Below are positions 303-13,675 of a stretch of DNA of 48,097 bases, piece by piece. Made by a program: the position numbers and the translations under genes. The notes under the pieces were generated by a model. It was not told where the DNA came from, did not search any database, and saw only the letters and a list, made by a program, of their open reading frames with translations. Positions within the stretch are counted from its first letter, which is position 1; each line of letters begins with the position of its first letter. The DNA is from a virus. The stretch spans positions 1-48,097 of IMG/VR virus record IMGVR_UViG_3300035698_024544, one strand, 5' to 3'.

Positions 303-1664
303 CTATTCATCTTCAGGGTCATAATCCTCAAGCGCAGCTGACAAGGTGTCGCCGGTGAAAGGCTCCAGGCCTGCGCTATCCATTACAAGGTTTGCCGTCC
401 TTCGGTACTGATCGGACATGGCAAGCGCAACCCGCTTGACCCGGGCGTTAGTGCGATTCTGATCCAGGTCCAAGATCCGCTTGGCCATCTTTTTGATTTC
501 CTGATTTACGCCAGCCAAGGCAGCGGAGTACGCGCCTGGATCATCTTCACGATTAGGAAGCTCCTCAACCATTTGAACCGCTGCATCCAGGATCTCTTGA
601 GCCTGCCCTCCGGTTGGATTTGCTACACTTGAAACGACCCGATCGATCACGGGTATCTGCTTCGGATCCTTCCAGATCATGGAAGGCAAACAGTCAACCA
701 CCGTGTCGTCTGTGACCTCCTCCTCACCCCGGATAAACGCCATAACCGGAAGCGCTTTCTTGAACACGATCCTTCGACGACGATCTGAGATCGTAACGCC
801 CGACTGGTTGAGCCTTTCTTCAATGTCCAGGAGCAAGTTCCGGGCATTCATGCTGATCGGCGTTTTCAAGGCCTCCTGTTCAATCATGATTATTTCTACC
901 AGCGACATTTTCTCGCTTGCAGGCTGTCCTAAGCCATCCTCAAAAGCGATCCGCGAACGGCCACCACGAGTAGAGGCGTAATCGACCCAAAAGCGCATGA
1001 CGAACCGGTCATCGAGAGCGGCAAGCTCCGGACCTTCCGGAATCTCGTTGGAGGCGCCGACCGCCATTCGCAGCGGAGTCCTGTACCGTTCCGCATCATC
1101 ATCGAAGTCGCGCTCGTTAAGGATCGTAAGCATCGCGGTCAGGATGGAGCTGTTCGCTTTCCAGATCTCGTCGAGGAAGGCCACCTCCGCTTGCGGCATC
1201 CTTTTTTCGGAAACGCGGGTGAAGCGCCCTTTCAGCATTTGATCCGGTCGGTGCGGTCCGAAAATCTCCTCCGGGACAGTGAACCGCGTAAGCAGGTAGC
1301 GGAAGTAAGTCCCGTCGCCACAAGCGTCGCAGACCCGTTCCGCCAACAGGCTTTTCGCCGTTCCAGGCGGTCCCAGGAGAAGGACGTTTTCACGGGCGAT
1401 GTAAGAACCGAATAGGGCAAGGATGATTTCTTCCCGCTCAACGAAGTTACTCGTCAGTTCCTTGATGATGCGATCGAGCTTCAATCGCGCTTCCTTTAAA
1501 GCCGTAGCCCTGGCCCTGGAAGTCATCGCAGCGATCTCCGCCTCGATGTCGGGCGTCGGGTCATAGATACCGCAAAGAGGAATCTTCGGGTTTTTGGTTG
1601 CCGGGGTCTTGAGCTGGATAGGCTCGACTTTTTTCTTCTTGATGGTTGGCTTCGGGTTCGGCAT
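303..1664 (-). CDS. MoxR/RavA-like AAA+ ATPase
   Basis: A 453-aa AAA+ ATPase. Visible motifs are Walker A GPPGTAKS at about residues 98-105, Walker B VAFLDE at 161-166, a sensor-1 segment ASNEIP near 204-209, and an arginine-finger segment DDRFVMRF at 218-225. The phrase LTRFTVPEEIFGP is typical of RavA-type MoxR proteins. The first 40 residues are Lys/Pro-rich and look disordered; the C-terminal 150 residues are helical. MoxR proteins usually act as chaperones with a VWA partner, here probably the next gene. The ATG at 1664 follows AAAAAGGGAA, a modest SD. It lies with its neighbours on the mRNA downstream of the last ribozyme of the array. The target is unknown. Confidence 0.92.
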   Translation of the reverse strand: MPNPKPTIKKKKVEPIQLKTPATKNPKIPLCGIYDPTPDIEAEIAAMTSRARATALKEARLKLDRIIKELTSNFVEREEIILALFGSYIARENVLLLGPPGTAKSLLAERVCDACGDGTYFRYLLTRFTVPEEIFGPHRPDQMLKGRFTRVSEKRMPQAEVAFLDEIWKANSSILTAMLTILNERDFDDDAERYRTPLRMAVGASNEIPEGPELAALDDRFVMRFWVDYASTRGGRSRIAFEDGLGQPASEKMSLVEIIMIEQEALKTPISMNARNLLLDIEERLNQSGVTISDRRRRIVFKKALPVMAFIRGEEEVTDDTVVDCLPSMIWKDPKQIPVIDRVVSSVANPTGGQAQEILDAAVQMVEELPNREDDPGAYSAALAGVNQEIKKMAKRILDLDQNRTNARVKRVALAMSDQYRRTANLVMDSAGLEPFTGDTLSAALEDYDPEDE

Positions 1665-1727
1665 AGCAGTATTCCCTTTTTTATTTATTCAATTTCCGGT
1701 TTTGGCATGGGTTTGAAAGAAGCTCGC

Positions 1728-2666
1728 TTACGCGGCGATCAGGGACCGAAGGTGTTCCTCCGCGTCCTTCATGCCCTTCATCAGGTTTGTTTTCGTGATT
1801 CCCAGGATGTCAGCGTACATCTCCACTTTCTTACGAAGGGCGTTGATCTGAGTGACTTTCCTGTCCAGCGCTGCCCCACGGGTATCTTTGGAATATTCAC
1901 CAAGCTCCTCTTGGATATATTGCAATTCCTGCGTCAGGTTTCCTTGAGCGGACCGGACGAGAGTTGCAGTGGATTGAATCGTTCCGTACAGGTTCAGGAT
2001 ACCGACCTGATTGTCCCCGACAGCAGGCTCCTCAACAACCGCAGCCAAAGCGGTGAGATCGTTTCGGTAAGCTGCAGGCACGAAGTACACTCCTCCTCGC
2101 TCCCTGATTGCGATCGCGTTGAAATAGATCATCGACTGACGAAGCAGGTGGAGGATGTCTTGTCGGAACAGGTAATCCGTGGCCTCCGTGAAACCCGCGA
2201 TCACCTCCTGGGAAACTGCGTGGCTTACTTCCGAGCGGACCGTTCCAGCTACCTTCTCGAAAACGATCCTGTCAACAGTCGCATGTTCCAAAACCCGACC
2301 CGTCAGCGCCTGACCGGTCGCGGTCGCATTGTCCACCTTGTCCTCCTCCACGACTGCCCAGATATTCTTCGTATCGTTCCCTTCGATTTTCCGGAGCAGG
2401 AAAGCCTCGCTGTTCCCCGCCTTGCGGTTGATTCGGCCTTGCTTGTTGCAGTACGCTTTCCCGCGATCCAGGCCTCTTGTGAACGCCATCGACGCGGTTA
2501 CTTCTCTTGGAAAGACAACCTCAGAAAGCGAATGCTTCTGGAACAGGGCGCGAAGGGCGTCTCGCCCGATCCTCACCTTGGAAACCGACCAGAAAATCTC
2601 GTCGCCCAGGTGTCCAGCCTTCTTGGTCTGTGCTTCTTGTAATTTCTTCATGTTCTGCTTGCTCAT
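1728..2666 (-). CDS. Conserved phage protein beside MoxR (DUF6744-like)
   Basis: A 312-aa protein without recognisable catalytic motifs. It is mixed alpha/beta with a helical C-terminus (about residues 230-312) rich in Gln, Glu and Lys that may form a coiled coil. From memory it resembles a phage family (DUF6744) that sits beside MoxR-type ATPases, so a role with the AAA+/VWA pair is plausible; this was not checked. Start ATG 2666 is chosen over upstream in-frame starts because AAGGAGG lies just upstream and because those starts would lie inside the hammerhead ribozyme of its leader. The next gene begins 63 nt after its stop. Confidence 0.75.
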   Translation of the reverse strand: MSKQNMKKLQEAQTKKAGHLGDEIFWSVSKVRIGRDALRALFQKHSLSEVVFPREVTASMAFTRGLDRGKAYCNKQGRINRKAGNSEAFLLRKIEGNDTKNIWAVVEEDKVDNATATGQALTGRVLEHATVDRIVFEKVAGTVRSEVSHAVSQEVIAGFTEATDYLFRQDILHLLRQSMIYFNAIAIRERGGVYFVPAAYRNDLTALAAVVEEPAVGDNQVGILNLYGTIQSTATLVRSAQGNLTQELQYIQEELGEYSKDTRGAALDRKVTQINALRKKVEMYADILGITKTNLMKGMKDAEEHLRSLIAA

Positions 2667-2695
2667 TAGGTTCCTCCTTGAAAGATTTGAATATT

Positions 2696-2774
2696 GGCTT
2701 GCCATCGTCAGGTACATGGGAGCCACCCACACACGACAAGGAATGCGAATATATCACATCCCTTGTTTCGGCAA
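2696..2774 (-). ncRNA. Type II hammerhead ribozyme HH5
   Basis: On the minus strand the order is: stem II 3' arm TTGCC (2774-2770), core GAAA (2769-2766), stem III of 12 pairs including A15.1-U16.1 with loop ATATATT, cleavage triplet GTC (predicted cut between 2735 and 2734), stem I of 9 pairs closing loop TGGCT, core CTGACGA (2711-2705), then T and stem II 5' arm GGCAA. The variable seventh core position is C here and T in the other copies. GGCT in loop I can pair with AGCC just after stem II. SD and start codon of the 1728-2666 gene follow within about 30 nt. Confidence 0.9.
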
Positions 2775-2947
2775 AAACGGGACATCCATCCAGGGCACGA
2801 CGAAGGAGGACATATGCCCTTCCCCATAATGGTTTTGGCAGACCTGGGGACAAGGGATGGACATCCCTATCATCCGCTCGCATTCGAGCGTTTTCTACTC
2901 GCTAAAAGGGCTTACCGTCATCAGGGTAACGGTGGCCGACCGCTACC
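2735..2947 (-). ncRNA. Predicted 213-nt RNA released between ribozymes HH4 and HH5
   Basis: The span between the predicted cut sites of HH4 (2948/2947) and HH5 (2735/2734). No minus-strand ORF with an SD is present in it. It contains short hairpins: CGCTCG-AATG-CGAGCG near 2890, and GGGATG-TC-CATCCC near 2862. It also carries CCTCCTT (complement of 2803-2809), which complements the AAGGAGG SD shared by genes of this operon. If both ribozymes cut, the RNA would have a 5'-hydroxyl and a 2',3'-cyclic phosphate. Release, stability and any function are inference. Confidence 0.4.
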
Positions 2948-2978
2948 GACGGGGACCGCTCAGTCCCCGTTTCGGCAA
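2908..2978 (-). ncRNA. Type II hammerhead ribozyme HH4
   Basis: Minus-strand order: TTGCC (2978-2974), GAAA (2973-2970), an 8-pair stem III ACGGGGAC/GTCCCCGT with loop TGAGCG, GTC with predicted cut between 2948 and 2947, stem I of 9 pairs (GGTAGCGGT/ACCGTTACC) with loop CGGCC, CTGATGA (2924-2918), C, and GGTAA pairing to TTGCC. GGC of loop I can pair with GCC after stem II. The stem sequences are almost all different from HH3, but the helices are kept. Unlike the other copies it follows a gene (stop at 2996) and is not directly followed by an SD and start codon. Confidence 0.88.
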
Positions 2979-2995
2979 GGCGCAGTGAAAGGGCT

Positions 2996-3937
2996 TTACT
3001 CCTCGTCGGTTTTGCCCTCTCGAAGCGCATCAAACGTTTTGGCAAGCTTCGGCGCGGAGTTCCGGACAGTCGCGCCTCTGGACGTTTTGCAACCTATGGT
3101 ATACTTGCTATACCGCTTTCTGTCGTAGGTGAAATCGGACGCGAAATCCGCTGTACTGATTTTGCCGCCTCCCTTAAGTATCCCGCCGATGATACTTGTA
3201 GAAATAATATCTTCGGCTTTCGCAGTCCCTTTCCCTCCGCTCCAGGCTTCGTACTGAACGACAAGCCCTGCTCCCTCGATTTTATACGCAGTCGCCAGGG
3301 CTACCTCGATAGTGTTCTCTCCGCAGGCGACAAAGAAACACGTACCAAGAGCCGGAACAGGTTCCTTCGAAGTCCAGAGCTCAAGCAGGGCATCGGGTTT
3401 TTGGCCAGCCCAGCCAGCATCGGCGATCGATGCCGCAGCCCTTACCGATTTTAAAACCAGTCGCTCGCCCTGGCTCCGTCCTGCTGTCCCCGCTCGGAAG
3501 ATCCTTCTTCTCTGTTCATCCTCCAGGGCTTTCTCCGCCTCGCCGAAAGCGCTTATCGGCTCCGGTTCCGTGGTGTCGATTTCTTCCGTCAGCGCCAAGC
3601 CCTGAACCGGTTCAAACACTACTATCGGCTCTTCGGCTTCGGTTTCGTCAGGCTTCGCAGGTTCCGCCTTTGTAGGCCTCTTTGCCTTTTCCTTGACGGG
3701 CACCTCAGGCGTTTCCTGGACAAGCTTCGCAGGCTTTTTCTTGGCGGGTTTCTTGGCGGGTTTCACGGGCGTTTCCTGGACAGGTTTCGTCGCCCGCTCA
3801 ACCTTCGCATCATCCACCTTCGCCTTCACCTTCACCCGCTTCGCCTTTGTGGCCTTCGCCCGCTTCGCGGTCGTCTTCGTCATGTCATCGGGCTTCCCAG
3901 GTTCCAAGCCCTCAATCTTTTCAGTTTTTTTCCTCAT
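2996..3937 (-). CDS. Lys/Ala/Pro-rich protein with folded C-terminal domain
   Basis: A 313-aa protein. The first 95 or so residues are a basic, low-complexity tail with repeats such as KPAKKPAKKKPAK and VQETP, like histone H1 or other nucleic-acid-binding tails. Residues 95-135 are acidic. The C-terminal half (about 150-300) looks folded, with GTCFFVACGENTIEVALAT and a Gly-rich stretch GGILKGGGK. I do not recognise the family; non-specific DNA or RNA binding by the tail is inference. ATG 3937 follows AAGGAGG. Its leader contains ribozyme HH3, and the leader plus the first codons (MRKK) duplicate those of the 4144-4416 gene. Confidence 0.75.
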   Translation of the reverse strand: MRKKTEKIEGLEPGKPDDMTKTTAKRAKATKAKRVKVKAKVDDAKVERATKPVQETPVKPAKKPAKKKPAKLVQETPEVPVKEKAKRPTKAEPAKPDETEAEEPIVVFEPVQGLALTEEIDTTEPEPISAFGEAEKALEDEQRRRIFRAGTAGRSQGERLVLKSVRAAASIADAGWAGQKPDALLELWTSKEPVPALGTCFFVACGENTIEVALATAYKIEGAGLVVQYEAWSGGKGTAKAEDIISTSIIGGILKGGGKISTADFASDFTYDRKRYSKYTIGCKTSRGATVRNSAPKLAKTFDALREGKTDEE

Positions 3938-4008
3938 AACATTCCTCCTTGTGAATTATCAAACGGCTTGCCATCATCAGCGATTCGGGAGCCACCCGAA
4001 ACGGACGC
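3933..4008 (-). repeat. Duplicated leader, copy A
   Basis: About 76 bp matching 4412-4487 with one mismatch seen by eye (c versus t at 3964/4443). It covers the first codons, SD, spacer, stem II 5' arm, core, stem I and cut site of the hammerhead leader. Identity ends at stem III, which differs in sequence and loop. This points to recent duplication or recombination of a gene-start cassette. Confidence 0.9.
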
Positions 4009-4038
4009 ATCAGCCCAAAGACTGATGCGTTTCGGCAA
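3965..4038 (-). ncRNA. Type II hammerhead ribozyme HH3
   Basis: Minus-strand order: TTGCC (4038-4034), GAAA (4033-4030), stem III ACGCATCAG/CTGATGCGT with loop TCTTTGGG, GTC with predicted cut between 4004 and 4003, stem I of 9 positions with one T-T mismatch closing loop TGGCT, CTGATGA (near 3980-3974), T, and GGCAA pairing with TTGCC. GGCT in the loop can pair with AGCC after stem II. It lies about 25 nt upstream of the ATG of the 2996-3937 gene, just before its SD. Confidence 0.92.
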
Positions 4039-4143
4039 TGCTTGATCAGCGTGAGTGAAGTGACTTTTTACATCATAGATTGTGAGGGTAAAAGATTAGA
4101 ATATTTGAAGGTGCATGACACGCCAACCAAGCTCGCAAACTGT

Positions 4144-4416
4144 TCAACTTTTCAGAATCCCTCGGCCACAAACCTTTTTCAGGCCTCCGCCAAAAACCTT
4201 TGTAAGGCTGGAGCCCTGGACCCGGACCGGGTTTTCCCCGACTTTTTCAATTTCTCCCTTGGCTATCCGACGACGGATGGTCCGCTCAGCCTTGCCCGTC
4301 GCGATTACCGCGTCGGCAACAGTGTAGACACGCTTGCTTCGCCTCTGCTGGGCGACCATCCAATTGTTAGTTTTGGATTTCTTCCTGGCTTCGCCAGCGT
4401 TTCCCTTTTTTCTCAT
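4144..4416 (-). CDS. Small helix-turn-helix-like DNA-binding protein
   Basis: A 90-aa basic protein. Residues about 30-60 (VYTVADAVIATGKAERTIRR then RIAKGEIEKVG) read as a helix-turn-helix of the MerR or excisionase type. A regulatory role in this operon is inference. ATG 4416 follows AAGGAGG with good spacing. Its leader carries ribozyme HH2 and is almost identical to the leader of the next gene. The stop (TGA) is about 105 nt from the next ribozyme, HH3. Confidence 0.75.
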   Translation of the reverse strand: MRKKGNAGEARKKSKTNNWMVAQQRRSKRVYTVADAVIATGKAERTIRRRIAKGEIEKVGENPVRVQGSSLTKVFGGGLKKVCGRGILKS

Positions 4417-4487
4417 AACATTCCTCCTTGTGAATTATCAAATGGCTTGCCATCATCAGCGATTCGGGAGCCACCCGAAACGGACGC
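4412..4487 (-). repeat. Duplicated leader, copy B
   Basis: Partner of 3933-4008. It includes the start of the 4144-4416 gene, its SD and the 3' half of ribozyme HH2. Stem III, outside the repeat, has diverged from copy A but still folds. Confidence 0.9.
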
Positions 4488-4525
4488 CAGGGCAAAACTC
4501 ACGTTTTACCCCAGCGTTTCGGCTA
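4444..4525 (-). ncRNA. Type II hammerhead ribozyme HH2
   Basis: Minus-strand order: TAGCC (4525-4521), GAAA (4520-4517), a 15-pair stem III closed by the GNRA tetraloop GTGA, GTC with predicted cut between 4483 and 4482, stem I with one T-T mismatch and loop TGGCT, CTGATGA, T, GGCAA. Stem II has three GC pairs, then an A-A mismatch and an A-T pair. GGCT of loop I can pair with AGCC after stem II. The SD and ATG of the helix-turn-helix gene follow directly. Confidence 0.92.
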
Positions 4526-4526
4526 T

Positions 4527-5039
4527 TTAGCAGGGAGCCAAACCGAAGAAGTAAAACACCTTTTTGCTTGCATCTTTCACGCTGTAAAACTTTCGCACCA
4601 CATCCGCCTTGTCCCCGGTCACTTCCACGCATCCGCATTCGTATTTCTTAAATTCACCTAATGTTATCAACGCCGAAGCCATCGTTTCGAGGTCATCCTC
4701 CTTCAGGCTTCGCTTTTCGGCCTCCAGGGTCGCCTTGTCTTCCTTAACATCGCGAAGCCTGCGAGTCGCCGTCCCCAGAGCCGGTCCCTTCAATCTTTCC
4801 TGGAACATTGACAACGTTTGAACATTCCGTTCACAGAATCCTATCGCCACCTCTACGTTTTTGCAGATTGTCTCAAAAGACATAGTCGAATATCGAAATC
4901 CTCTTGTACTGTCAATCTCTCCACTGTATCCATCAGCTCCCCCGTTAAAGAATTTGCTCTGAGCCTCACTCCAGGCGTGAGCGTAAGCTGATTCTGCATC
5001 TTTTCCGAAAGCGTACTGCGTGAATTTCCGTGCTCCCAT
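4527..5039 (-). CDS. Uncharacterised 170-aa protein, first gene of the ribozyme operon
   Basis: A 170-aa protein of unknown function. The N-terminal part is mixed and includes GYSGEIDSTRGFRYSTMSFE; the middle (about residues 75-120) is charged and helical; a CGC motif lies near residue 137. ATG 5039 is chosen over upstream in-frame ATGs because AAGGAGA lies 7 nt before it, and the longer reading would run through the hammerhead ribozyme in the leader. Its stop (TAA) is directly followed by ribozyme HH2, so cleavage would give a single-gene mRNA of about 620 nt. Confidence 0.72.
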   Translation of the reverse strand: MGARKFTQYAFGKDAESAYAHAWSEAQSKFFNGGADGYSGEIDSTRGFRYSTMSFETICKNVEVAIGFCERNVQTLSMFQERLKGPALGTATRRLRDVKEDKATLEAEKRSLKEDDLETMASALITLGEFKKYECGCVEVTGDKADVVRKFYSVKDASKKVFYFFGLAPC

Positions 5040-5062
5040 AATTGTCTCCTTCGTATGTTTGT

Positions 5063-5141
5063 GACCTGCCATCATCAGGCGAAAGGCGGTCAACCCTTCC
5101 ACGACCCTGACACGGCGAACCGCGTCAAGGGTTTCGGCTGG
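5063..5141 (-). ncRNA. Type II hammerhead ribozyme HH1
   Basis: The most divergent copy. Minus-strand order: CCAGCC (5141-5136), GAAA (5135-5132), a 12-pair stem III with one bulged T and a TTCG tetraloop, GTC with predicted cut between 5103 and 5102, stem I of 8 pairs (GTGGAAGG/CCTTTCGC), CTGATGA (5078-5072), T, GGC pairing with GCC. Loop I carries GACC and the segment after stem II carries GGTC, so the four-pair pseudoknot is kept with different bases from HH2, HH3 and HH5. SD and ATG of the 170-aa gene follow. Confidence 0.9.
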
Positions 5142-5286
5142 AATATTCAAAGGCATAGCGATCACCGTATAGGCACCCGAAGGATTTATGCTACCATTTT
5201 TGCCAGCGAATATTCCGTTCAAAACATATAAAAAGCAACAATCCAAGCCGAGCCAGTTTCCCGGTTCTCGACTTGTCTTATTGATT

Positions 5287-5317
5287 ATTGTAGTTTTGCG
5301 TCTATTCCGCTTGTCAA
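5287..5317 (-). promoter_or_regulatory. Candidate sigma70-type promoter for the ribozyme operon
   Basis: On the minus strand, TTGACA (5317-5312) and TACAAT (5292-5287) are separated by 19 nt, one or two more than ideal. Transcription would start near 5280, about 140 nt before ribozyme HH1. No terminator is visible between it and the operon. Confidence 0.5.
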
Positions 5318-5345
5318 ATCGTCTGTTAAAGCCTCAAGGCGTTAG

Positions 5346-5527
5346 CCCGTCCAGCCTCGTCCCAGCATCTCGATTGTCGCCGGTCCGGTTCTAATTTTCT
5401 TTGCCCACGAAGAAGGTAATACCGAAAATACCTCCGCTTCCTTCCAGGTCTTTATGTCTCACCTTTGCTTGAACTCCGTTACCCTGATTTGACCATCCCT
5501 TGTCCTGTTCTGGAAAGGCTGGACGGG
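5346..5527. repeat. Long-range inverted repeat (11 bp arms)
   Basis: CCCGTCCAGCC at 5346-5356 is perfectly complementary to GGCTGGACGGG at 5517-5527, with 160 nt between. On the minus strand the 5' arm directly follows GAAA, as in a hammerhead, but the other core elements are missing. The span overlaps the small ORF at 5391-5576. Function unknown. Confidence 0.5.
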
Positions 5528-5576
5528 TTTCGGCTCTCGTTATCGCATCGGCGGGGAAGCGTGCCAGAAATTTTAT
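5391..5576 (-). pseudogene. Protein-like small ORF lacking a standard start
   Basis: The minus-strand frame ending at TAG 5391-5393 reads like real protein for at least 60 codons (KGWSNQGNGVQAKVRHKD, then GSGGIFGITFFVGKEN at the end). It has no ATG, and its only GTG is internal with 23 codons left. A possible ATA start at 5576 has AGAGG 7 nt upstream and would give 61 aa beginning MKFLARFPADA. Reading further upstream, a TGA at 5610-5612 interrupts a frame that stays protein-like. It is either a decayed gene or a small gene with an unusual start. Function not recognised. Confidence 0.35.
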
Positions 5577-6063
5577 TGTTGCGCCTCTGGTTAGGTCGCT
5601 ATTAAGTTTTCAGGTGGGGTTGATTCTCCCGGTTTGCTTTTCACCTCTTGGGCTTGTTTTTAGGTCCCGAAAGCAGACCCCGAAAAGCGCCGAACCAAAG
5701 AACCAAAGAACATGACCCTTTATAGGCGGAGGCGCGAAAGAAGTAAAGTTAAAAGTTTATTTTTTTACTACAAACCTTTATTTCAGGTCTTTTCTCCCCA
5801 AATCTAACAAACCAATATATTTATTCAAAAGAAGAAATAGCGACAAAAACACTAGTAATTCAAGCAACTTCCGCTGGTGTTCTGCAAAAATGGCTTCGCC
5901 AGGGCGGCAAACCTGGACCCGGATAAAAAAAAGAAAAAAAACCCGTCAGCAAACAAGCCTTCCCTCTCGTTTTGAACGGAATGACATCTTTTGCCGGTTT
6001 GTCAACGTGTGAGCAGGGCTTTTCCGCTCAGATTCTAGCGGAAGAAAAACTCTTCACATACAT

Positions 6064-6081
6064 AGAACTTTCTTAAGTTCT
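6064..6081. repeat. Small inverted repeat
   Basis: AGAACTT and AAGTTCT separated by TCTT. It sits at the left edge of the hexamer repeats. Confidence 0.6.
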
Positions 6082-6091
6082 AAAAAACGTG

Positions 6092-6138
6092 AACGTTAAC
6101 GAAAACATAACCATAAACGTAAACGTTAACGTTAACGT
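6092..6138. repeat. GTTAAC/AACGT hexamer repeats
   Basis: GTTAAC occurs at 6095-6100, 6125-6130 and 6131-6136. Between about 6114 and 6138 the hexamers TAAACG, TAAACG, TTAACG, TTAACG run in tandem. This suggests a protein-binding array. Confidence 0.7.
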
Positions 6139-6146
6139 GACATACG

Positions 6147-6168
6147 ACTTTGATATATTTATCAAAGT
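6147..6168. repeat. AT-rich hairpin
   Basis: ACTTTGATA and TATCAAAGT with a TATT loop. On the plus strand it is followed by a T-rich run, so it could be a weak plus-strand terminator or part of a melting region. Confidence 0.5.
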
Positions 6169-6226
6169 TCTATTTTTCTAAAATCCTACCCTGAAAACCT
6201 TAGTATTATCAACGACTTGCAAGAAC

Positions 6227-6305
6227 TCTTGCAAAACTCCTGGCGACAAGCGTTTTGCAAGAGTTGGATTCTTGCAAAACTCCTGGCGACAAGCGTTTTG
6301 CAAGA
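6227..6305. repeat. Two identical 36-nt repeats, each an inverted repeat
   Basis: Copies at 6227-6262 and 6270-6305. Each has arms TCTTGCAAAAC and GTTTTGCAAGA (11 bp, perfect) around the same 14-nt spacer. A related half-site CTTGCAAGA starts near 6216. The layout suits a dimeric DNA-binding protein bound at two sites. Confidence 0.85.
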
Positions 6306-6352
6306 ATAAAAAAAACCTAATGAAAACGACAACTTGACACGAAAACCCAAAA

Positions 6353-6433
6353 AACGCTGTCCAAACGCTGTCCAAACGCTGCCAGGTTTTTGGCAACGCT
6401 ATCCAAACGCTATCCAAACGCTGTCCAAACGCT
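6353..6433. repeat. Tandem 11-nt iterons around a hairpin
   Basis: Units of AACGCTRTCCA at 6353-6363, 6364-6374, 6375-6384 (one base short), 6395-6405, 6406-6416 and 6417-6427, then a partial AACGCT. The third and fourth units are separated by a small hairpin, GCCA-GGTTTT-TGGC (6381-6394). An 11-nt period is about one helical turn, as expected for iterons bound on one DNA face. Confidence 0.85.
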
Positions 6434-6524
6434 AAAACGTGTAAGGATACCACCCAATTTTTAAGCGGAATCAGTGATTGCGTATTTCGCTTGAGCCCTG
6501 TCAAGGCGTGCGCTTCTGGTAAAC

Positions 6525-6553
6525 GTTCTGCTTTCTCAAAGCAGAACTTTTTT
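6525..6553 (+). terminator. Rho-independent terminator on the plus strand
   Basis: GTTCTGCTTT and AAAGCAGAAC form a 10-bp stem with a CTC loop, followed by TTTTTT on the plus strand. No plus-strand gene is seen upstream, so it would end a non-coding rightward transcript from the repeat region. On the minus strand the same hairpin has no U-tract after it. Confidence 0.7.
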
Positions 6554-6697
6554 CGCGATTTTAGCGCCCTTTTGGCCCAGGCGGGTGAAAGGGTCCAAGT
6601 CGACCTGGTTAGAGCAAGGGCGCTGAGGTAACGAAACGGGTTAGGTAGAAAAAAACAATAACCATCAACGCCCGGACCACCTGGGAAGGCCGACAAT

Positions 6698-6744
6698 GAA
6701 AAAAAGAAACGGCAACCGTCGCTGGCTAGGCGTCGATTGCCGTT
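6698..6744 (-). terminator. Rho-independent terminator on the minus strand
   Basis: On the minus strand, AACGGCAA (6744-6737) pairs with TTGCCGTT (6715-6708) with additional inner pairing, followed by TCTTTTTTTC. It lies about 140 nt beyond the last tail/lysis gene and about 150 nt after a strong promoter. Confidence 0.75.
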
Positions 6745-6854
6745 CGGAGGAACGATCCGCTGGCGGCGTGCCCTATCAATCCAGCATTTCACGGAAAGAA
6801 AGATAGAGGCGAGCAAGGCGGAGCGCGAACAGTTGAATGTCAAAGACCGAATAA

Positions 6855-6883
6855 ACAATACCTCACCGGGCGAATCCTGTCAA
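6855..6883 (-). promoter_or_regulatory. Sigma70-type promoter pointing into the non-coding region
   Basis: TTGACA (6883-6878) and TATTGT (6860-6855) with a 17-nt spacer on the minus strand. The -35 box begins two bases past the stop of the 6885 gene. The next terminator is at 6698-6744, so the shortest product would be a roughly 150-nt RNA without an SD-led ORF. Confidence 0.6.
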
Positions 6884-6884
6884 C

Positions 6885-7520
6885 TTAACCGGTCCTTGTT
6901 TTGCTTTGGCCTAAAAGGTGTTCATCGATAATCTCATGGAAGGCGACGGCTGTCGGTCCGGAAAACAAAACAGCAACAGCATCAACAGCGGAAGCTCCAG
7001 CAATATAAGACAACGCGGAAACAAGGGCACCAAGGAACACCGGAATATATGCCCTGTACTTTGGCTGAATCCTCTTCAGGGCGTTGCCTAAAAAGCGGGA
7101 CTTCAACAGGTTTGTAAACAGGGTCAGCAAAGCAGCAGCGACAGCGGTCAGCGTGGCCATCCTTCCCGCCTGTGACCCGTCATGTTCACTTGCGGTTTTG
7201 ACGAGTGTCTCCATGGCCCGGGCGTTCTCTTCGGCTTCCGCGAAATCCATGGCATCGTTAAAAAGATCGCTAACAGACGACGCCTGGACGATCCCGATTT
7301 CGTTGTCACCATCGGCGGAAACGCCCGTTCTAACAAATACCGTCCCTCCAGGCTCCTGGCCATTAGTCACGAATTCGGGAATGTTTCCTGCTACGGTTGG
7401 CTCGGCGTAAACCACTGTTCCAAAGTCAGCGAACAGCAGGAGTCCGCCGAGGGCAAGCAAACTGAACGCCCCAGCCAAAAACCCGAATAGTTTGTCATTC
7501 ATTCTCATGAGCATTTTCAT
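6885..7520 (-). CDS. Membrane protein, candidate holin
   Basis: A 211-aa protein. One hydrophobic segment lies at about residues 9-31 (LFGFLAGAFSLLALGG), followed by a soluble, acidic stretch. Hydrophobic segments then lie near residues 120-140 (TLTAVAAALLTLF) and 152-185. The ATG at 7520 is chosen because GGAGG lies just upstream and the previous stop is only one base away; earlier in-frame starts would overlap the previous gene. It comes last in the tail operon, where holins often lie, next to another membrane protein. Holin function is inferred from position and topology; no endolysin is visible in the window. Confidence 0.6.
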   Translation of the reverse strand: MKMLMRMNDKLFGFLAGAFSLLALGGLLLFADFGTVVYAEPTVAGNIPEFVTNGQEPGGTVFVRTGVSADGDNEIGIVQASSVSDLFNDAMDFAEAEENARAMETLVKTASEHDGSQAGRMATLTAVAAALLTLFTNLLKSRFLGNALKRIQPKYRAYIPVFLGALVSALSYIAGASAVDAVAVLFSGPTAVAFHEIIDEHLLGQSKTRTG

Positions 7521-7521
7521 G

Positions 7522-7953
7522 TCAGCCTCCAGGTGGATGATTGTTTTGGCCATGCCTGGAAGCGCATTGCACCTCCAAGGCGCGAAAATCACGTTCCATG
7601 TCGTCAATCCTTTTGTGAATACGAGCCTTCGATATATCAAATGCGTTTTTTTGGGTATACCTTTTTTCAGCTTCCAGCAGTAAAGCGGCAATCTGAGCCC
7701 TTATCTCCTCGTCGTTTTTATTGATGAAAAATATCAGGTCGTCCTTTGTTGACGCGCATGTTATCAGTGCAGACCTATCGTGTTCGGTAAACCTGTTATT
7801 CGCATTATCCAACTTCTCTTCGATCGAAGTTAGCCTGTCATCATCCCTGGATATCATTCGCTTGACGAAATAAGCTAATGCAGTAATGAAAGTTGCAAAT
7901 AGGCCACCGTAAATAACTATGGCCCATCCAGGAATTAAGACCGCCTTATTCAT
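7522..7953 (-). CDS. Membrane-anchored coiled-coil protein, possible lysis accessory
   Basis: A 143-aa protein with one N-terminal membrane segment (about residues 7-29, AIVIYGGLFATFITALAYFV) and a long charged helical region after it, ending in a Cys- and His-containing tail. The topology (short N-terminus, one anchor, long coiled coil) is that of small phage inner-membrane lysis accessory or spanin-like proteins. SD GGAAGG precedes ATG 7953. It is coupled to the candidate holin gene. No outer-membrane lipoprotein partner lies beside it, so the spanin reading is weak. Confidence 0.55.
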   Translation of the reverse strand: MNKAVLIPGWAIVIYGGLFATFITALAYFVKRMISRDDDRLTSIEEKLDNANNRFTEHDRSALITCASTKDDLIFFINKNDEEIRAQIAALLLEAEKRYTQKNAFDISKARIHKRIDDMERDFRALEVQCASRHGQNNHPPGG

Positions 7954-7980
7954 TAGTTCACCTTCCCAGGTTTGAACGAA

Positions 7981-10008
7981 TTAGAGTTCTACAATCTCGA
8001 GCCTTGTGGCAGGAAGGACAGTTGCTCCACCACTGGAAATATCCTTGAGGATATCCATGTCGCCTCCGGTTGAATGATACGCCCAAACTTCGATATAATC
8101 CGTATCGCTTATTTCGAGAATCGTTTCTCCACTCTGGGTAAAGGGAACGAGATGAGTATCATCCCTGTCCATCTGGGCTAGCACTGCAATGTCCGTTGTC
8201 CCCGCCTTCTTGAGGTATATCTGATAGGTTCCGACTGCTCCTTTTTCCCAGCACACCTGAGCACGAACCTTGAAACGTCTCGTCACTCCAAGGTCATCTG
8301 CAACCAAAGCAAAACGGCTGTTTGCCGTGCTGTACCTGGTAGCAGTAAGAGGAGTTCCGATATTCAGCGTTTCAAATGTTACTTTTGTTGCGGTTAAGTT
8401 GGTAATGGTTTGGTCTGAGCCGGACTTTACGGCCTGGATGATGATCTTCGAAGTAGGCACAGTCGGCCACCATCCGCCTGAGACACTTAGGTCTGAGGTC
8501 CAGGTTGCATTATTTCCGAACGGACGGTAGTACGTACCATGAGCGCCTTCATAGGCATCATGGGACTGAATGAATATGCACTGAGCGGACCAATCATCCT
8601 TGTCCTTCTCCCAGGCTGTACCATTCCACAAGGCATTCGTGGTGATATATAGTGTTACTCCGCTGGAAACGTAGAGGCGGATCCTGGAGCTTCCTGTTGC
8701 CTGTTGGGTTTCCCACAAAAGCACAGGAGCGGCGTCTGATGTGGAGCTATGGTCAAACTGGAGAGGGATCTTGTGCAAGCCTTTGTTCGTTCCAGATTCT
8801 TTTTGCGTAATATGTCCCGGACTGAATGCGCTAAGCAATTCAGAAAGCGCAGCGTCCACATCAGCCGCATCATAAGTAGCTGCCAAACTGACAGAGACGG
8901 CAACGGCACCATGAGCATCAGTGCCATCAGCGATGTGATCAGAAATCGCATCGGACAAAGCGCTATCAGCTCCAGAACGGGTCCCGGCCTCAGAGTGTAT
9001 GGATGCATCCGCGTTGTCGGCAAGGGCTCGTATCGCAGCCTTCAACCCTCCGGCTGTGAAATCAGAGAGCCCGTTGGTTGTGGTGTGGGCGTCAATTCCG
9101 ATCCGCTCGGCACCGACCGTTCCCGTCGACAAGCCCAGGTCGCCGATCATTTGCTCAACAACCTTTTTGACTGTTGGCGCTCCTGATACCGCCAGGGCGA
9201 TCGCATCTCGCCAGATTTGCCCTTGCTCTGCTCCCAGGTTTTCCCAGAAACCAGCAGCCGTTCCAAGGCCAAAGTTATCGTTCCACCAGCTTATCAGCTT
9301 CTCGTAAGCATCTTGCGGCTGATTGGCGACAAAAGGACCAATATATGCATAATCCGCAAGGCTAAGGCGAATCCAGTTTTCACGGCGAGTAGAATCGAAC
9401 GATCCGGACCCGTCCAGGGTGGTATCATCGTCACCCGCATCTCCAGTAACGACCATGCCGCCAGGATCTTCGATCGCGATGTCGCAAAGTTTTATCGCGT
9501 CTTTTATGAAGGGATACGATTCAGTGTTTACAGGGTTTGCCGGGCGATTGGAAACATCGGTAAGATCCGCGACTGCAACCAGTGGTCCTTTGATCACATA
9601 AAAAACCACGTTTTCCTCTTGAAGGGTATAAACAGGATTTCCATTGCCGTCCGTGGTGACTCCGCCATACTCCCGATCGAAAGCCGCGAGGATAGTGACC
9701 CATCGCCCATTCACAGAACCCGAAACGATGTCATTGACTGTTGAATCCCCCAGGTAATCAACCGAAACGTCGATCGTCTGCTCCACTGTCCAAGGGCAGC
9801 GCTTTCCCCCGTGGTCCCTGACCACACCGGGAGCAACCAACGCGGTAAGATCCGCAGGAGTATTAGCGCTTACCGTCGCGCCTTCCCTGATCCCTGGCCC
9901 AAACGAATCCAAGGAAGCGGTCGCAATTGAAGCCTCCACGTTGTCAAACGCTAGGTTCATATCAGCGCTTGAAACAAGCTGTTTGAAATAGAACTCATAC
10001 CGATCCAT
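7981..10008 (-). CDS. Tail fibre protein with C-terminal jelly-roll-like domain
   Basis: A 675-aa protein. The N-terminal third probably attaches to the baseplate. Residues about 290-385 are Ala/Asp/His-rich, with patterns such as ISDHIADGTDAHGA typical of trimeric fibre shafts. The C-terminal 130 or so residues are beta-rich (RFKVRAQVCWEKG, ending ATRLEIVEL), like a C1q/TNF-type receptor-binding tip. Between them is another beta domain containing LYITTNALWNGTAWEKDKDD. AAAGGAG precedes ATG 10008. It lies directly downstream of the gpI-like gene, the usual place for a P2-type fibre gene. Receptor unknown. Confidence 0.75.
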   Translation of the reverse strand: MDRYEFYFKQLVSSADMNLAFDNVEASIATASLDSFGPGIREGATVSANTPADLTALVAPGVVRDHGGKRCPWTVEQTIDVSVDYLGDSTVNDIVSGSVNGRWVTILAAFDREYGGVTTDGNGNPVYTLQEENVVFYVIKGPLVAVADLTDVSNRPANPVNTESYPFIKDAIKLCDIAIEDPGGMVVTGDAGDDDTTLDGSGSFDSTRRENWIRLSLADYAYIGPFVANQPQDAYEKLISWWNDNFGLGTAAGFWENLGAEQGQIWRDAIALAVSGAPTVKKVVEQMIGDLGLSTGTVGAERIGIDAHTTTNGLSDFTAGGLKAAIRALADNADASIHSEAGTRSGADSALSDAISDHIADGTDAHGAVAVSVSLAATYDAADVDAALSELLSAFSPGHITQKESGTNKGLHKIPLQFDHSSTSDAAPVLLWETQQATGSSRIRLYVSSGVTLYITTNALWNGTAWEKDKDDWSAQCIFIQSHDAYEGAHGTYYRPFGNNATWTSDLSVSGGWWPTVPTSKIIIQAVKSGSDQTITNLTATKVTFETLNIGTPLTATRYSTANSRFALVADDLGVTRRFKVRAQVCWEKGAVGTYQIYLKKAGTTDIAVLAQMDRDDTHLVPFTQSGETILEISDTDYIEVWAYHSTGGDMDILKDISSGGATVLPATRLEIVEL

Positions 10009-10019
10009 GGGTTTCTCCT

Positions 10020-12338
10020 TTATTCAAGAACAGTTTCTCCTACATCACTTTCGCCAGTTGCCTCGTCTGCGCTAAATCCCATCACTACAGAAGCGTCTCC
10101 AGTAGCGAGAAGAGTCGCGTCGTCACCGGCTAATATCGTAGCAATCACAACCTTTGTCCCATACCTGTAAGATATAGCGGACGAAATATATCTATTAATG
10201 ATCGTTGCGACATCAACCGAACTTGCATTTCCCAGGGTGCTTTCCAGGCCCACAAATTCAGCAGCGCCGAAAACGATGTCTTGATAAAGACCACCGTTAG
10301 GAGCGACGGACAAGGTGTCGCCTTCTCCAAGCACAAACGGACCTGGATCAGAAACAAGGATTGCTGGCGCATCGCCGCCGAGAGCAGTTAGCCCGAGCAC
10401 CCATCCAGCCTGCTCATCCTCGGATATGGGAGAAATTAGATTTATATAATGAGTATGCGGAGGCTTCATGTAATTCACGAGCCGTCTTGTCGTCAGGGTT
10501 TCTGCATCCGTCAGCGGACGCAAAACCCCGCCGATAGTAACAAGCTCCAGGTCAAAAGAATACAGCGCCCTTCTTGATCCCATGGCGAGCGTGGTGTTTA
10601 CGCCTAGCTGGGAAACAAAGTAATCCGCGTCCCCGACCTCCCCGTCCTCCTCGCCGAGATACCATGCCTCGCCCTGATCAGTATAAGGCTTCACCGTAAC
10701 ATCCATGTCCAAGAAAAACCCGAGGACAGCCTTGAGCCCTGACGCGGTCCCTTTTAGCTTGTAAATAGCGACAAGGTTCAACGCAAGCCAGCGCTTGTTA
10801 TCAACATCAAGTTCTATCCACCCAAAAGGGTTTCCCAGTCCGTACAAGGTAGCATCCACAAAACTTTCCGGAGCAGACAGGGCGTCCGTAATCGAAGAGA
10901 ACCTGTCCGCGTCATAAAGCTGCAAATTCACAATCTCTTGCCAACAGAGCATGAACCTGTGAAACGCATCCGTGATGTCTATGGTTTTGTTCCATCCAGG
11001 GAAGAAACTATATAAATCAAATTGTCTGCCAACCGGAACAGGAGGTGCCCACCCAAGAAACGAAGCCTGATTATTCGGGCTTGCCATTTCATTTCCAGAA
11101 ATATCAGTCACACCGGAAACCGTTAGCACGTAAGGAGCATTCGGCGTGATTGGAATATTCAATGTAAGCTCAATTACGTTTGAAGTAATCGCCCTTGCAG
11201 AAAGCACCTCAACCGTAACGGCTGGAGTGAATGAATCGTTGTTCCGCTCGATGGAGTAATTGTCCGGATCAGCAGCCTCCGGAAGGTCCACGTCCTCCGC
11301 CTCCGGGTCGAGGACAAAATCAACAACCGAATGATCAAGAATCGCGACAACCGTTCGCTCTCCTGTGCGTCCGTCTTCATAGAGAGTGAAAACCGGAACG
11401 ATAAAACTCCCAGGTGAGGTTCCATAGGGCAACCGGCGAGTTTGTTCCTCAAGCGGAAAAAGAAGGACATCGACAGAGTTGCCGGCAACGCGGAAAACAG
11501 AAGACGCCGAAACAGGCCGGACGTAAACACGCCCGTTCACAGGCCAAGCGATCAAGCCAGGGTAGGCGCTCTGTATTACCAAGGCCACCTCTGATGCTGT
11601 AGCTGCTCCAATGGCGGCAAACTGGTAAGCCCGAAACTGGATTTGACTGAAAGCGCCTCCGTCAACCGATACTGAAAAACTGAGCCTGTCTCTCAGGGCG
11701 TATGGCTCGACAGCCGAGACGACGTAAGGGTAAGTCACGTCGGAAAAGGTATACCTGTCCAGAATCGTATCAAATGAAAAGGTTTCTGTCCCCCAGGGAA
11801 AAACAGCACTGACCGTGCTTACGGCAAGGCCTCTGTTGATCACCGGGTTTCCGAAATTCACTCGAACAACTTTTTGGTCCCAGGGCGTAACGCTCGAAAC
11901 GATTGGAGCCGTTTTGTCTTCAATCGTAAAGGTGTATTCAGAATCTATCCCCCCAGGCAAACCTACCACATCAGCAATAATGCGAATGTCTGTTTTGTTC
12001 AAGGAGACAAAATCTTCTTCAGGGTCTATAATGACAGAAAACCCGTCATCAATGGCGGTCACCACTGACCCATCGCCATCAAACCCGAGCTGGAACGGGC
12101 TTGCATCCGCTCCATCGAACGCAAGCGTTTCGTCAATCCATATTTGAATAGTTCCCAGGCTAACCCCGTCTGATTCAGGGTCGATTATATTCATACTTAT
12201 GAAAGTTGACGCAGGGATTCCCGTTTCGCCTGGCTCAGGGTCGCGGTTGAAAAGCAGAGGACGTGTAGCATCGGCGTCGCGTGCTACGGTGTCTATCGCG
12301 AGAAAAGGAATTCCGTAAACGATATCACCTGTACTCAT
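10020..12338 (-). CDS. P2 gpI-like baseplate protein with added beta modules
   Basis: A 772-aa protein. Residues about 430-640 match the phage tail protein I type: a helical start (DAFHRFMLCWQEIV), then WLALNLVAIYKLKGTASGLK, and VNYMKPPHTHYINLISP near its end. Ahead of it are Ig-like segments (about 25-145 and 305-420). Two copies of a roughly 80-aa module lie at about 217-296 and 684-757; a related module is in the tail sheath. gpI links the wedge (gpJ) to fibres, and P2 gpI is only about 180 aa. The start overlaps the upstream stop (ATGA) and has SD GAGGAGAAGG. The beta modules probably decorate the baseplate edge. Confidence 0.75.
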   Translation of the reverse strand: MSTGDIVYGIPFLAIDTVARDADATRPLLFNRDPEPGETGIPASTFISMNIIDPESDGVSLGTIQIWIDETLAFDGADASPFQLGFDGDGSVVTAIDDGFSVIIDPEEDFVSLNKTDIRIIADVVGLPGGIDSEYTFTIEDKTAPIVSSVTPWDQKVVRVNFGNPVINRGLAVSTVSAVFPWGTETFSFDTILDRYTFSDVTYPYVVSAVEPYALRDRLSFSVSVDGGAFSQIQFRAYQFAAIGAATASEVALVIQSAYPGLIAWPVNGRVYVRPVSASSVFRVAGNSVDVLLFPLEEQTRRLPYGTSPGSFIVPVFTLYEDGRTGERTVVAILDHSVVDFVLDPEAEDVDLPEAADPDNYSIERNNDSFTPAVTVEVLSARAITSNVIELTLNIPITPNAPYVLTVSGVTDISGNEMASPNNQASFLGWAPPVPVGRQFDLYSFFPGWNKTIDITDAFHRFMLCWQEIVNLQLYDADRFSSITDALSAPESFVDATLYGLGNPFGWIELDVDNKRWLALNLVAIYKLKGTASGLKAVLGFFLDMDVTVKPYTDQGEAWYLGEEDGEVGDADYFVSQLGVNTTLAMGSRRALYSFDLELVTIGGVLRPLTDAETLTTRRLVNYMKPPHTHYINLISPISEDEQAGWVLGLTALGGDAPAILVSDPGPFVLGEGDTLSVAPNGGLYQDIVFGAAEFVGLESTLGNASSVDVATIINRYISSAISYRYGTKVVIATILAGDDATLLATGDASVVMGFSADEATGESDVGETVLE

Positions 12339-12874
12339 ATTACAACCTTCTCCTCAAATCCAGCCGCCTCAAGCCCGATGGCGCATCCCTCAGCCGCTCC
12401 CTCCGCAACGAGAGCAAGGACGAAGGAAACCTCGTGAACGCTGGACAGCTTGGAAACGTTTGCCGCCAAATCATATCGCGTTCTCATCTTCGCCCTGCTC
12501 ATCACTGCGATGCTTGCGATAACTGAATCAATTCCTATCAGAAAAACCCAAACCATGCCAGGAGGCGGGACCGTCGGCAAAACAGACCTCATCGCAACCC
12601 TGATTAGGTTTATATTCGACATGTTTATTTCCTGGGAAACTCGCTGGTAATCTCCAGGAGCTAATCCCAGGTTCAGGATGTAGGTGTCTACTGAATCGCC
12701 AACCAGCCCAGACGTGATAATGTCTTCTTCCCGCGAATGCCCAAACCGTTCATTCAAACCTTGGCTTCCAAGGCAAAAAACATAGTCACCTTGCGGAGGC
12801 GTCCACTGCGAAGGCACCACCCGACCATAGTTTTGTCCAAGTGTGCCAAACTCGAAAACGGTAGTTTCAGTCAT
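12335..12874 (-). CDS. Virion-associated hypothetical protein in the fibre cluster
   Basis: A 179-aa protein with no family I recognise. It starts MTETTVFEFGTLGQNYGRVV and is predicted to be mostly beta, with a hydrophobic stretch near residues 105-125 (PPGMVWVFLIGIDSVIASIA). SD AGGAT precedes ATG 12874, and its stop overlaps the start of the gpI-like gene. Position among fibre genes suggests a minor tail or baseplate part. Confidence 0.65.
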   Translation of the reverse strand: MTETTVFEFGTLGQNYGRVVPSQWTPPQGDYVFCLGSQGLNERFGHSREEDIITSGLVGDSVDTYILNLGLAPGDYQRVSQEINMSNINLIRVAMRSVLPTVPPPGMVWVFLIGIDSVIASIAVMSRAKMRTRYDLAANVSKLSSVHEVSFVLALVAEGAAEGCAIGLEAAGFEEKVVI

Positions 12875-12887
12875 TCTATTTATCCTA

Positions 12888-13664: not shown

Positions 13665-13675
13665 GGCCTTCTCCT

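Follow-up and report, generated by a model that had tools for sequence, protein, structure and literature searches.

Five type II hammerhead ribozymes (HHRs) were identified on the minus strand between positions 5140 and 2692 of a 48,097-nt stretch of viral DNA (the window). They were named HH1 to HH5 in transcript order. The analysis supports their assignment as type II hammerheads located at the gene junctions of one co-directional phage operon. Spaced along this operon, the predicted self-cleaving elements probably divide its message so that most of the resulting mRNAs carry one gene and have protected ends. The array comprises five co-directional HHRs within 2.45 kb. The same record encodes sheath-like, tape measure, portal and capsid genes.

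Identification of the Ribozymes

When both strands of the 48 kb were scanned for the structure, HH1 to HH5 were the only candidates found, against a mean background of 0.15 matches per shuffle (40 dinucleotide shuffles). A covariance model, R1, was built from 36 HHRs of other phages, none of which was taken from the window. R1 matched all five elements in the window with E values of 2.3e-10 to 7.7e-13, and the sixth-best match had an E value of 0.32. The Rfam Hammerhead_II model, proposed as a check in the initial annotation, gave no match at the gathering score. This is literally the result named there as speaking against the ribozymes, whereas R1 matched all five. With permissive filters Rfam RF02276 listed HH3 (32.5 bits), HH2 (28.5 bits) and HH1 (25.6 bits), all below its cut-off of 37 bits, and HH4 and HH5 were not listed even under these filters. 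Only four members of a 23-HHR array in another phage scored at or above the Rfam cut-off, so the miss looks like a limit of the model. It looks to be the Rfam model, rather than membership of the ribozyme class, that the window HHRs fail. The standard Rfam model overlooks most members of some HHR arrays. The naive pattern CTGANGA-N3-20-GAAA was uninformative because the order of elements differs in type II. The coordinates of the ribozymes and of the neighboring features are given in Table 1.

Table 1. Ribozymes, genes and the gene-free fragment of the operon
Feature	Coordinates	Strand	Description	C17	Score
HH1	5060..5140	-	Type II HHR 5' of gene A	5103	R1 51.4 bits, E 3.1e-11
HH2	4440..4525	-	Type II HHR, gene A/gene B junction	4483	R1 55.0 bits, E 3.8e-12
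HH3	3961..4038	-	Type II HHR, gene B/gene C junction	4004	R1 57.7 bits, E 7.7e-13
HH4	2905..2978	-	Type II HHR, no gene after it	2948	R1 48.0 bits, E 2.3e-10
HH5	2692..2774	-	Type II HHR 5' of gene D	2735	R1 52.5 bits, E 1.6e-11
Gene A	4527..5039	-	170 aa; phrog_37401-like, function unknown		PHROG E 7.8e-6
Gene B	4144..4416	-	90 aa; ORF with AAGGAGGA Shine-Dalgarno		
Gene C	2996..3937	-	313 aa, N-terminal part Lys/Ala/Pro-rich; ORF with AAGGAGGA Shine-Dalgarno		
Gene D	1728..2666	-	DUF6744 (PF20529)		Pfam E 3.1e-14
MoxR-type AAA ATPase gene	303..1664	-	bpMoxR, PF20030; shares last fragment with gene D		Pfam E 2.7e-52
213-nt fragment	2735..2947	-	Gene-free, structured; bounded by HH4 and HH5 cuts; apical loop UCCUCCUU (2810-2803)		

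Core, Stems and Pseudoknot

The order of elements described in the initial annotation was confirmed in all five minus-strand segments: stem II 3' arm, GAAA, stem III, C17, stem I, CUGANGA and stem II 5' arm. The closed stem III ending in an A-U pair (A15.1-U16.1) and the closed stem I were likewise present in each, and the 5'-hydroxyl nucleotides predicted there (5102, 4482, 4003, 2947 and 2734) agree with the C17 positions. HH1 to HH5 have closed stems I and III and an open stem II, the arrangement that defines type II, and the stems are backed by covariation in relatives. The core (C3-U4-G5-A6-N7-G8-A9, G12-A13-A14, A15.1-U16.1 and H17) was intact in all five, position 17 being C throughout. 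By scanner counts stem III has 6-15 bp, stem I 8-9 bp and stem II 3-6 bp.

Several features had been missed in the initial annotation. One additional pyrimidine (U or C) is located between A9 and 10.1, before stem II, in every element. In HH1, HH2, HH3 and HH5 loop I pairs with the 3' tail in a pseudoknot of about 5 bp or more. That of HH1 (UGACC/GGUCA) carries a compensatory change, and that of HH4 is weak, with only 3 bp. This pseudoknot is found in most type II HHRs and is not a strict requirement. Also missed was an 82-nt near-identical duplication (98%) shared by HH2 and HH3, starting where stem III ends and stopping shortly beyond the start codon. Stem III itself differs between the two despite the shared leader.

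In one type II HHR assayed by Perreault et al. (2011; PMC3088659), cleavage became about 20-fold to more than 100-fold slower once the pseudoknot was shortened, so HH4, with its 3-bp pseudoknot, may be slow. An additional residue is present at the same core position in a viroid hammerhead, where trans-cleavage was 3-4-fold faster with U than with the natural A and an A-to-C change was strongly detrimental (PMC3705267). The inserted pyrimidine of HH4 is C, which counts against its activity given the viroid A-to-C result.

Operon Organization

A Shine-Dalgarno sequence and start codon follow four of the HHRs within about 40 nt, as the initial annotation had stated, with ATG at +32 (gene A, after HH1), +36, +36 and +38 (gene D, after HH5) from CUGANGA. 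The gene A stop codon ends 6 nt 5' of the HH2 GAAA. HH3 and HH4 are 110 and 22 nt from the preceding stop codon, farther than typical, and this counts against the segmentation reading. No family match was obtained for genes B and C in Pfam and PHROG searches. No HHR lies between gene D and the MoxR gene, which also counts against that reading.

Predicted cleavage would release internal fragments of 620, 479, 1056 and 213 nt, lengths that had been given correctly. The accompanying claim that most genes would receive their own mRNA fits the predicted fragments, with the exception of the 213-nt fragment; this would not be an mRNA, since there is no gene on it.

Covariation and Genomic Placement

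Pairing was found in 94.7% of cells across the 36 HHRs of other records, compared to 64.6% in shuffles and 31-44% in slid versions. Of the 21 pairs, 17 showed changes on both sides; these included all five pseudoknot pairs, which had played no part in selecting the 36 sequences. With no stem II required, 217 of 217 candidates formed at least 2 bp at that site, and a displaced control arm did so in 102 of 217.

Of 242 unique HHRs, 65% have a stop codon whose end lies no more than 12 nt 5' of GAAA, compared to 5% of random positions. A Shine-Dalgarno start lies 15-60 nt past CUGANGA in 70%, compared to 11% in the control. Exactly one gene was carried by 68 of 99 inter-HHR fragments. This stop-ribozyme-start placement across 242 HHRs, the arrays of up to 23 copies and the occurrence in cultured phages go beyond the descriptions found in the literature.

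Repeated stems were also present in other HHR arrays. An annotated start codon in a public phage record can overlap an HHR. No relatives of the window phage were found in IMG/VR with DUF6744, MoxR and the 760-aa sheath-like protein as queries, and DUF6744 gave no match against INPHARED.

Proposed Function and Alternatives

In the proposed mechanism the five HHRs are spaced along a single co-directional operon, four of them directly 5' of a gene. Each HHR would fold during transcription, forming stems I, II and III and the loop I-tail pseudoknot, and the transcript would be cut 3' of each C17. The stem III hairpin, carrying a 2',3'-cyclic phosphate, would form the 3' end of the upstream product, and the downstream product would open with a 5'-OH placed immediately at the stem I hairpin. 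To our knowledge, type II is the sole circular permutation of the hammerhead with a closed hairpin on either side of the cut. The likely benefit would be that one long message yields mostly single-gene mRNAs whose ends are protected, allowing mRNA lifetime and level to be set per gene without separate promoters or terminators. The HH4-HH5 pair would free a structured 213-nt RNA in place of an mRNA. We infer cleavage by HH1 to HH5, a single transcript spanning all five and a benefit to the phage. For tandem phage HHRs of this type, cleavage has been observed both in vitro and in E. coli (PMC3088659), and this was counted for the cleavage model.

The fragment ends would also lend themselves to the formation of closed or circular RNAs, in which half-hammerheads pair through stem II and are religated by the ribozyme or by a host RtcB ligase. 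Each fragment has a 5' stem I-CUGANGA-GGC and a 3' GCC-GAAA-stem III, all arms in the window are compatible, and the 213-nt fragment folds with both arms paired. Circular or spliced products were mentioned as possible for tandem phage HHRs, but they were sought and none were found (PMC3088659). Where neighboring HHRs have differing stem II arms, the fragment ends can reach 3 bp of pairing in just 8 of 25 such cases, whereas each HHR always matches itself. Closure of fragment ends and circular mRNA were not supported as the general function because such differing arms are mostly mismatched across the fragment, and this reading is considered quite unlikely. The 82-nt leaders of HH2/gene B and HH3/gene C, 98% identical with different stem III, together with the repeated stems of other arrays, could instead mark recombination points or mobile leader modules, with the HHRs as conserved folds and cleavage incidental. 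Recombination alone leaves the strict covariation of core, stems and pseudoknot and the strict stop/start placement unexplained, making this very unlikely. GC-rich hairpins at gene ends occur in every element, as would be expected of intrinsic terminators or other end-forming structures that are not ribozymes. There is no U-tract after stem III or stem I, and the GC-rich hairpin with a direct U-tract that characterizes an intrinsic terminator was not found at HH1 to HH5 on the minus strand. No terminator-like site was called on that strand at any of the five. Since the catalytic core is also intact in all five, a terminator reading is extremely improbable.

The 213-nt fragment folds with an MFE of -92.7 (z -6.05; z -4.1 for the inner 133 nt), and no ORF with a Shine-Dalgarno sequence is present on it. 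Its loop UCCUCCUU is exactly complementary to AAGGAGGA at 4429, 3950, 2679 and 302. Being strongly structured and without a gene, and with an apical loop that is the exact complement of four operon sites, this RNA might be the main product of the array, a small regulatory RNA binding the operon Shine-Dalgarno sequences. This is unlikely, as the hairpin searches found no relative sharing the feature, a strong Shine-Dalgarno of any kind would likewise match UCCUCCUU, and HH4 looks weak. The exact anti-Shine-Dalgarno hairpin was not found in IMG/VR, and a looser hairpin pattern gave 10 matches, none with an HHR. It is similarly doubtful, though conceivable, that HH4 and HH5 excise a stable 213-nt non-coding RNA whose UCCUCCUU binds the AAGGAGGA of genes B, C, D and the post-MoxR gene as the operon's own translational brake.

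The role of HHRs in bacteria and phages is listed among the open questions of the field (PMC6155905). If that role is mRNA segmentation with hairpin-capped ends, it would provide a protein-free route to an own mRNA for each gene of a phage operon.

Comparison With Known Systems

The initial annotation knew of no phage operon divided by serial hammerheads and regarded bacterial and phage type II HHRs as mostly single copies. Clustered prophage HHRs had already been reported by Perreault et al. (2011; PMC3088659), clustering is described there and in PMC6155905, and arrays of 23, 11 and 9 exist. In the 2011 study prophages carried multiple HHRs around single genes or short gene blocks, and processing into single-gene mRNAs was the proposed role. 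Tandem sets of Clostridium scindens, Azorhizobium caulinodans and Agrobacterium tumefaciens cleaved in vitro, the last also in E. coli (PMC3088659). A 2017 review notes that HHRs are often close together and flank small ORFs (PMC6155905). The HH1-HH5 array is a further case of the arrangement first described in 2011 and is not novel in kind.

The window resembles the 2011 arrays in its layout, a phage genome in which genes are flanked by several HHRs, as well as in the proposed role and in the loop I-3' tail pseudoknot of the type II members. It differs from them, including the Agrobacterium tumefaciens triple array, in having five type II copies, all with a pyrimidine after A9, and one gene-free interval. 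Cleavage was demonstrated for those arrays and is predicted for the window array. The window HHRs share the core, element order, stem topology and downstream tail with Rfam RF02276, but have the additional nucleotide before stem II and a longer stem III. The Chrysanthemum chlorotic mottle viroid plus-strand hammerhead also has an additional residue between A9 and 10.1 (PMC3705267), although this is A rather than U or C and belongs to a viroid with no phage operon.

Another array is found in IMGVR_UViG_3300033112_000310, with 23 HHRs in 13 kb, nearly one per gene. These lie at successive gene junctions and have the same additional U and mostly the same UGGCU/AGCCA-type pseudoknot. The phiC31 early region has "terminators without poly-U tails". 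These were considered as type II HHRs and rejected, no HHR being found in NC_001978 by model and scan.

The cultured Streptomyces phages Hank144, Animus and Triumph (Janusvirus) and Diane (Omarvirus) carry 7-11 serial type II HHRs each, with 9 copies in Hank144 and 11 in Animus. The HHRs of these phages have diverged in sequence but keep an intact structure. As in the window, they sit at the junctions between genes of a single leftward block, and most of those in Hank144 have a stop codon on one side and a Shine-Dalgarno start on the other. The gene content is unrelated to that of the window and the phages belong to another lineage; most of their HHRs are without the additional pyrimidine and have the GGC/GCC stem II in the opposite orientation. 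With arrays in cultured phages and strict placement, the role of these ribozymes becomes genetically testable.

Identification of the hammerhead array

Five type II hammerhead ribozymes (HHRs), numbered HH1 to HH5 in transcription order, are present on the minus strand of the window. Each comprises, in order, a stem II 3' arm, GAAA, a closed stem III (A15.1-U16.1), C17, a closed stem I, CUGANGA and a stem II 5' arm. When both strands were scanned for this structure, exactly these five and no others were found; the same scan averaged 0.15 HHR matches over 40 dinucleotide shuffles. Against a covariance model built from 36 HHRs, all from other records, HH1 to HH5 scored 48.0-57.7 bits, with E values from 2.3e-10 to 7.7e-13; the next-best window match had an E value of 0.32. 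HH1 to HH5 are real type II hammerhead elements, and the scan and outside model bear out the number and element order proposed in the initial annotation. The 5'-hydroxyl positions that it listed, one nucleotide past C17, and its fragment lengths are correct given the C17 positions.

The Rfam search that it had called for gave no window HHR match at the Rfam cut-off but three matches below threshold. All five HHRs have one added pyrimidine between A9 and the first stem II pair (CUGANGA-U/C-GGC or -GGU), which, from a reading of the alignments, appears to depress the Rfam score. Only 4 of 23 HHRs in another phage's array passed the cut-off. The added residue is common in other phages: it was present in 139 of 165 sampled HHRs and absent from the remaining 26, a frequency that is biased because the gathering pattern required it. 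A chrysanthemum viroid hammerhead has an extra residue in the same place, which is A in the viroid whereas it is U or C in the window. Replacing the viroid's inserted A by U made trans-cleavage 3-4-fold faster, whereas C or G at this position impaired it (PMC3705267).

Among the 36 outside HHRs, 94.7% of cells were base paired compared to 64.6% when shuffled and 31-44% with the partner slid 1-3 columns. Both-sided changes occurred in 17 of 21 pairs, including all five of the loop I-3' tail pseudoknot, which had no role in selecting the sequences. HH2 and HH5 form this pseudoknot with UGGCU/AGCCA, HH3 with UGGCU/AGCCG and HH1, by compensatory change, with UGACC/GGUCA. By reading of the sequence, that of HH4 has only 3 bp (GGC/GCC). 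Pseudoknot shortening slowed cleavage about 20-fold to >100-fold in the work of Perreault et al. (PMC3088659), and HH4 is therefore the least certain of the five.

Features of the window and of two other records
Feature	Location	Strand	Remark
HHR array	5140 to 2692	-	HH1 to HH5
C17 of HH1	5103	-
C17 of HH2	4483	-
C17 of HH3	4004	-
C17 of HH4	2948	-
C17 of HH5	2735	-
82-nt duplicated leader module	3927-4008 and 4406-4487		98% identity
213-nt gene-free structured fragment	2947-2735	-	between HH4 and HH5
AAGGAGGA sites	4429, 3950, 2679, 302		genes B, C, D and gene after MoxR
11-nt-unit repeats	6341-6433		AAACGCTGTCC-like
Near-palindromes	6227-6305		two identical, 36 nt, spacing 7 nt
23-HHR array	873-13935		IMGVR_UViG_3300033112_000310
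RAGATH-28 RNA (RF03052)	2275-2194		Gemmiger sp. An120

The window phage is myovirus-like: the 48,097-base IMG/VR virus record encodes sheath-like, tape measure, portal and capsid proteins. Its long genes lie on the minus strand. Upstream of the array is a gene-poor stretch of ~1.7 kb with no clear genes. This contains repeats on an 11-nt unit, which may be the iterons of an operator or of an origin of replication. The region around the near-palindromes folds unusually well (z about -5).

Placement between genes

A Shine-Dalgarno sequence and ATG lie 32-38 nt past CUGANGA in HH1, HH2, HH3 and HH5, which precede genes A, B, C and D, respectively. The gene A stop codon ends 6 nt ahead of the HH2 GAAA. 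Placement was quantified against random positions for 242 unique HHRs, drawn from records of both viruses and bacteria. The upstream stop codon ended ≤12 nt before GAAA in 65% (5% at random positions), and a Shine-Dalgarno start lay 15-60 nt after CUGANGA in 70% (11% at random). At typical junctions, TAAGCCGAAAC or TGAGCCGAAAC, the stop codon abuts or overlaps stem II. By a simple ORF rule 68 of 99 inter-HHR fragments held exactly one gene. HH2 and HH3 share the duplicated module from the final stem III bases to just beyond the start codon and differ in the remainder of stem III. Leader modules have apparently been copied between genes.

No Shine-Dalgarno-preceded gene was found between HH4 and HH5. 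The 213-nt RNA has a strong fold, with a z score of -6.05 for the whole and -4.1 once the HHR halves are taken away. The apical loop of its final hairpin, UCCUCCUU, is eight bases long and exactly complementary to AAGGAGGA, a sequence present at Shine-Dalgarno sites; TCCTCCTT occurs only twice on the window's minus strand. Searches revealed no relative that shares this feature. This RNA may have a regulatory role, though with low probability.

Arrays in other genomes

A pattern scan of IMG/VR gave at least 120 loci. The longest run among the matches listed comprised 23 HHRs, which occupy 13 kb of a record of 112 kb and mark nearly every gene junction there; by the model, other records contained runs of 11, 8, 8 and 6. 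One record is that of cultured Streptomyces phage Hank144 (NC_054661), with nine HHRs by the scan. Its relatives Animus, Diane and Triumph have 11, 7 and 7, respectively; these are cultured Janusvirus and Omarvirus phages. HHR junctions partly correspond among the four, with stems diverged yet still paired. In these regions their public records list nothing but protein genes, with the HHRs unannotated. The annotated start of Hank144 gp73 (10559) is probably wrong as it falls within an HHR (10586-10535). Matches to the HHR pattern are present as well in bacteria of many phyla and in some archaeal genomes. In Gemmiger sp. An120 a RAGATH-28 RNA and a type II HHR array were located in the same 16-kb stretch.

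Likely role and relation to described arrays

Cleavage of polycistronic RNA by tandem phage HHRs is known in vitro and, for the A. tumefaciens triple, also in E. coli (PMC3088659). By analogy, the window HHRs would likewise cleave their polycistronic RNA. Type II is the sole circular permutation with hairpins flanking the cut on both sides. The upstream RNA would carry a 2',3'-cyclic phosphate at the end of stem III, and the downstream RNA would start at stem I with a 5'-hydroxyl. Given the way RNA decays in bacteria, these hairpins should protect both ends. Alternatively, fragments could close on themselves via the stem II arms of neighboring HHRs. Of 25 cases in which neighbors differ in these arms, only 8 have matching fragment ends, while each HHR matches itself, also when stem II was not demanded (≥2 bp in 217 of 217). 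Every stem II arm in the window is compatible, so closure could occur there. Single-gene mRNAs with protected ends are the most likely benefit.

In the open-access literature covered, quantified stop-HHR-start placement, many-copy arrays and arrays in cultured Streptomyces phages were not found described. Such absence is not proof of novelty for any of the three. The initial annotation knew of no phage operon split by serial HHRs, but clustered phage HHRs had already been described. A 2017 review (PMC6155905) repeats the description by Perreault et al. and calls the role open, and a 2023 paper reports bacterial self-cleaving ribozymes enriched near other self-cleaving ribozymes. The window array is thus a larger case of a known arrangement.
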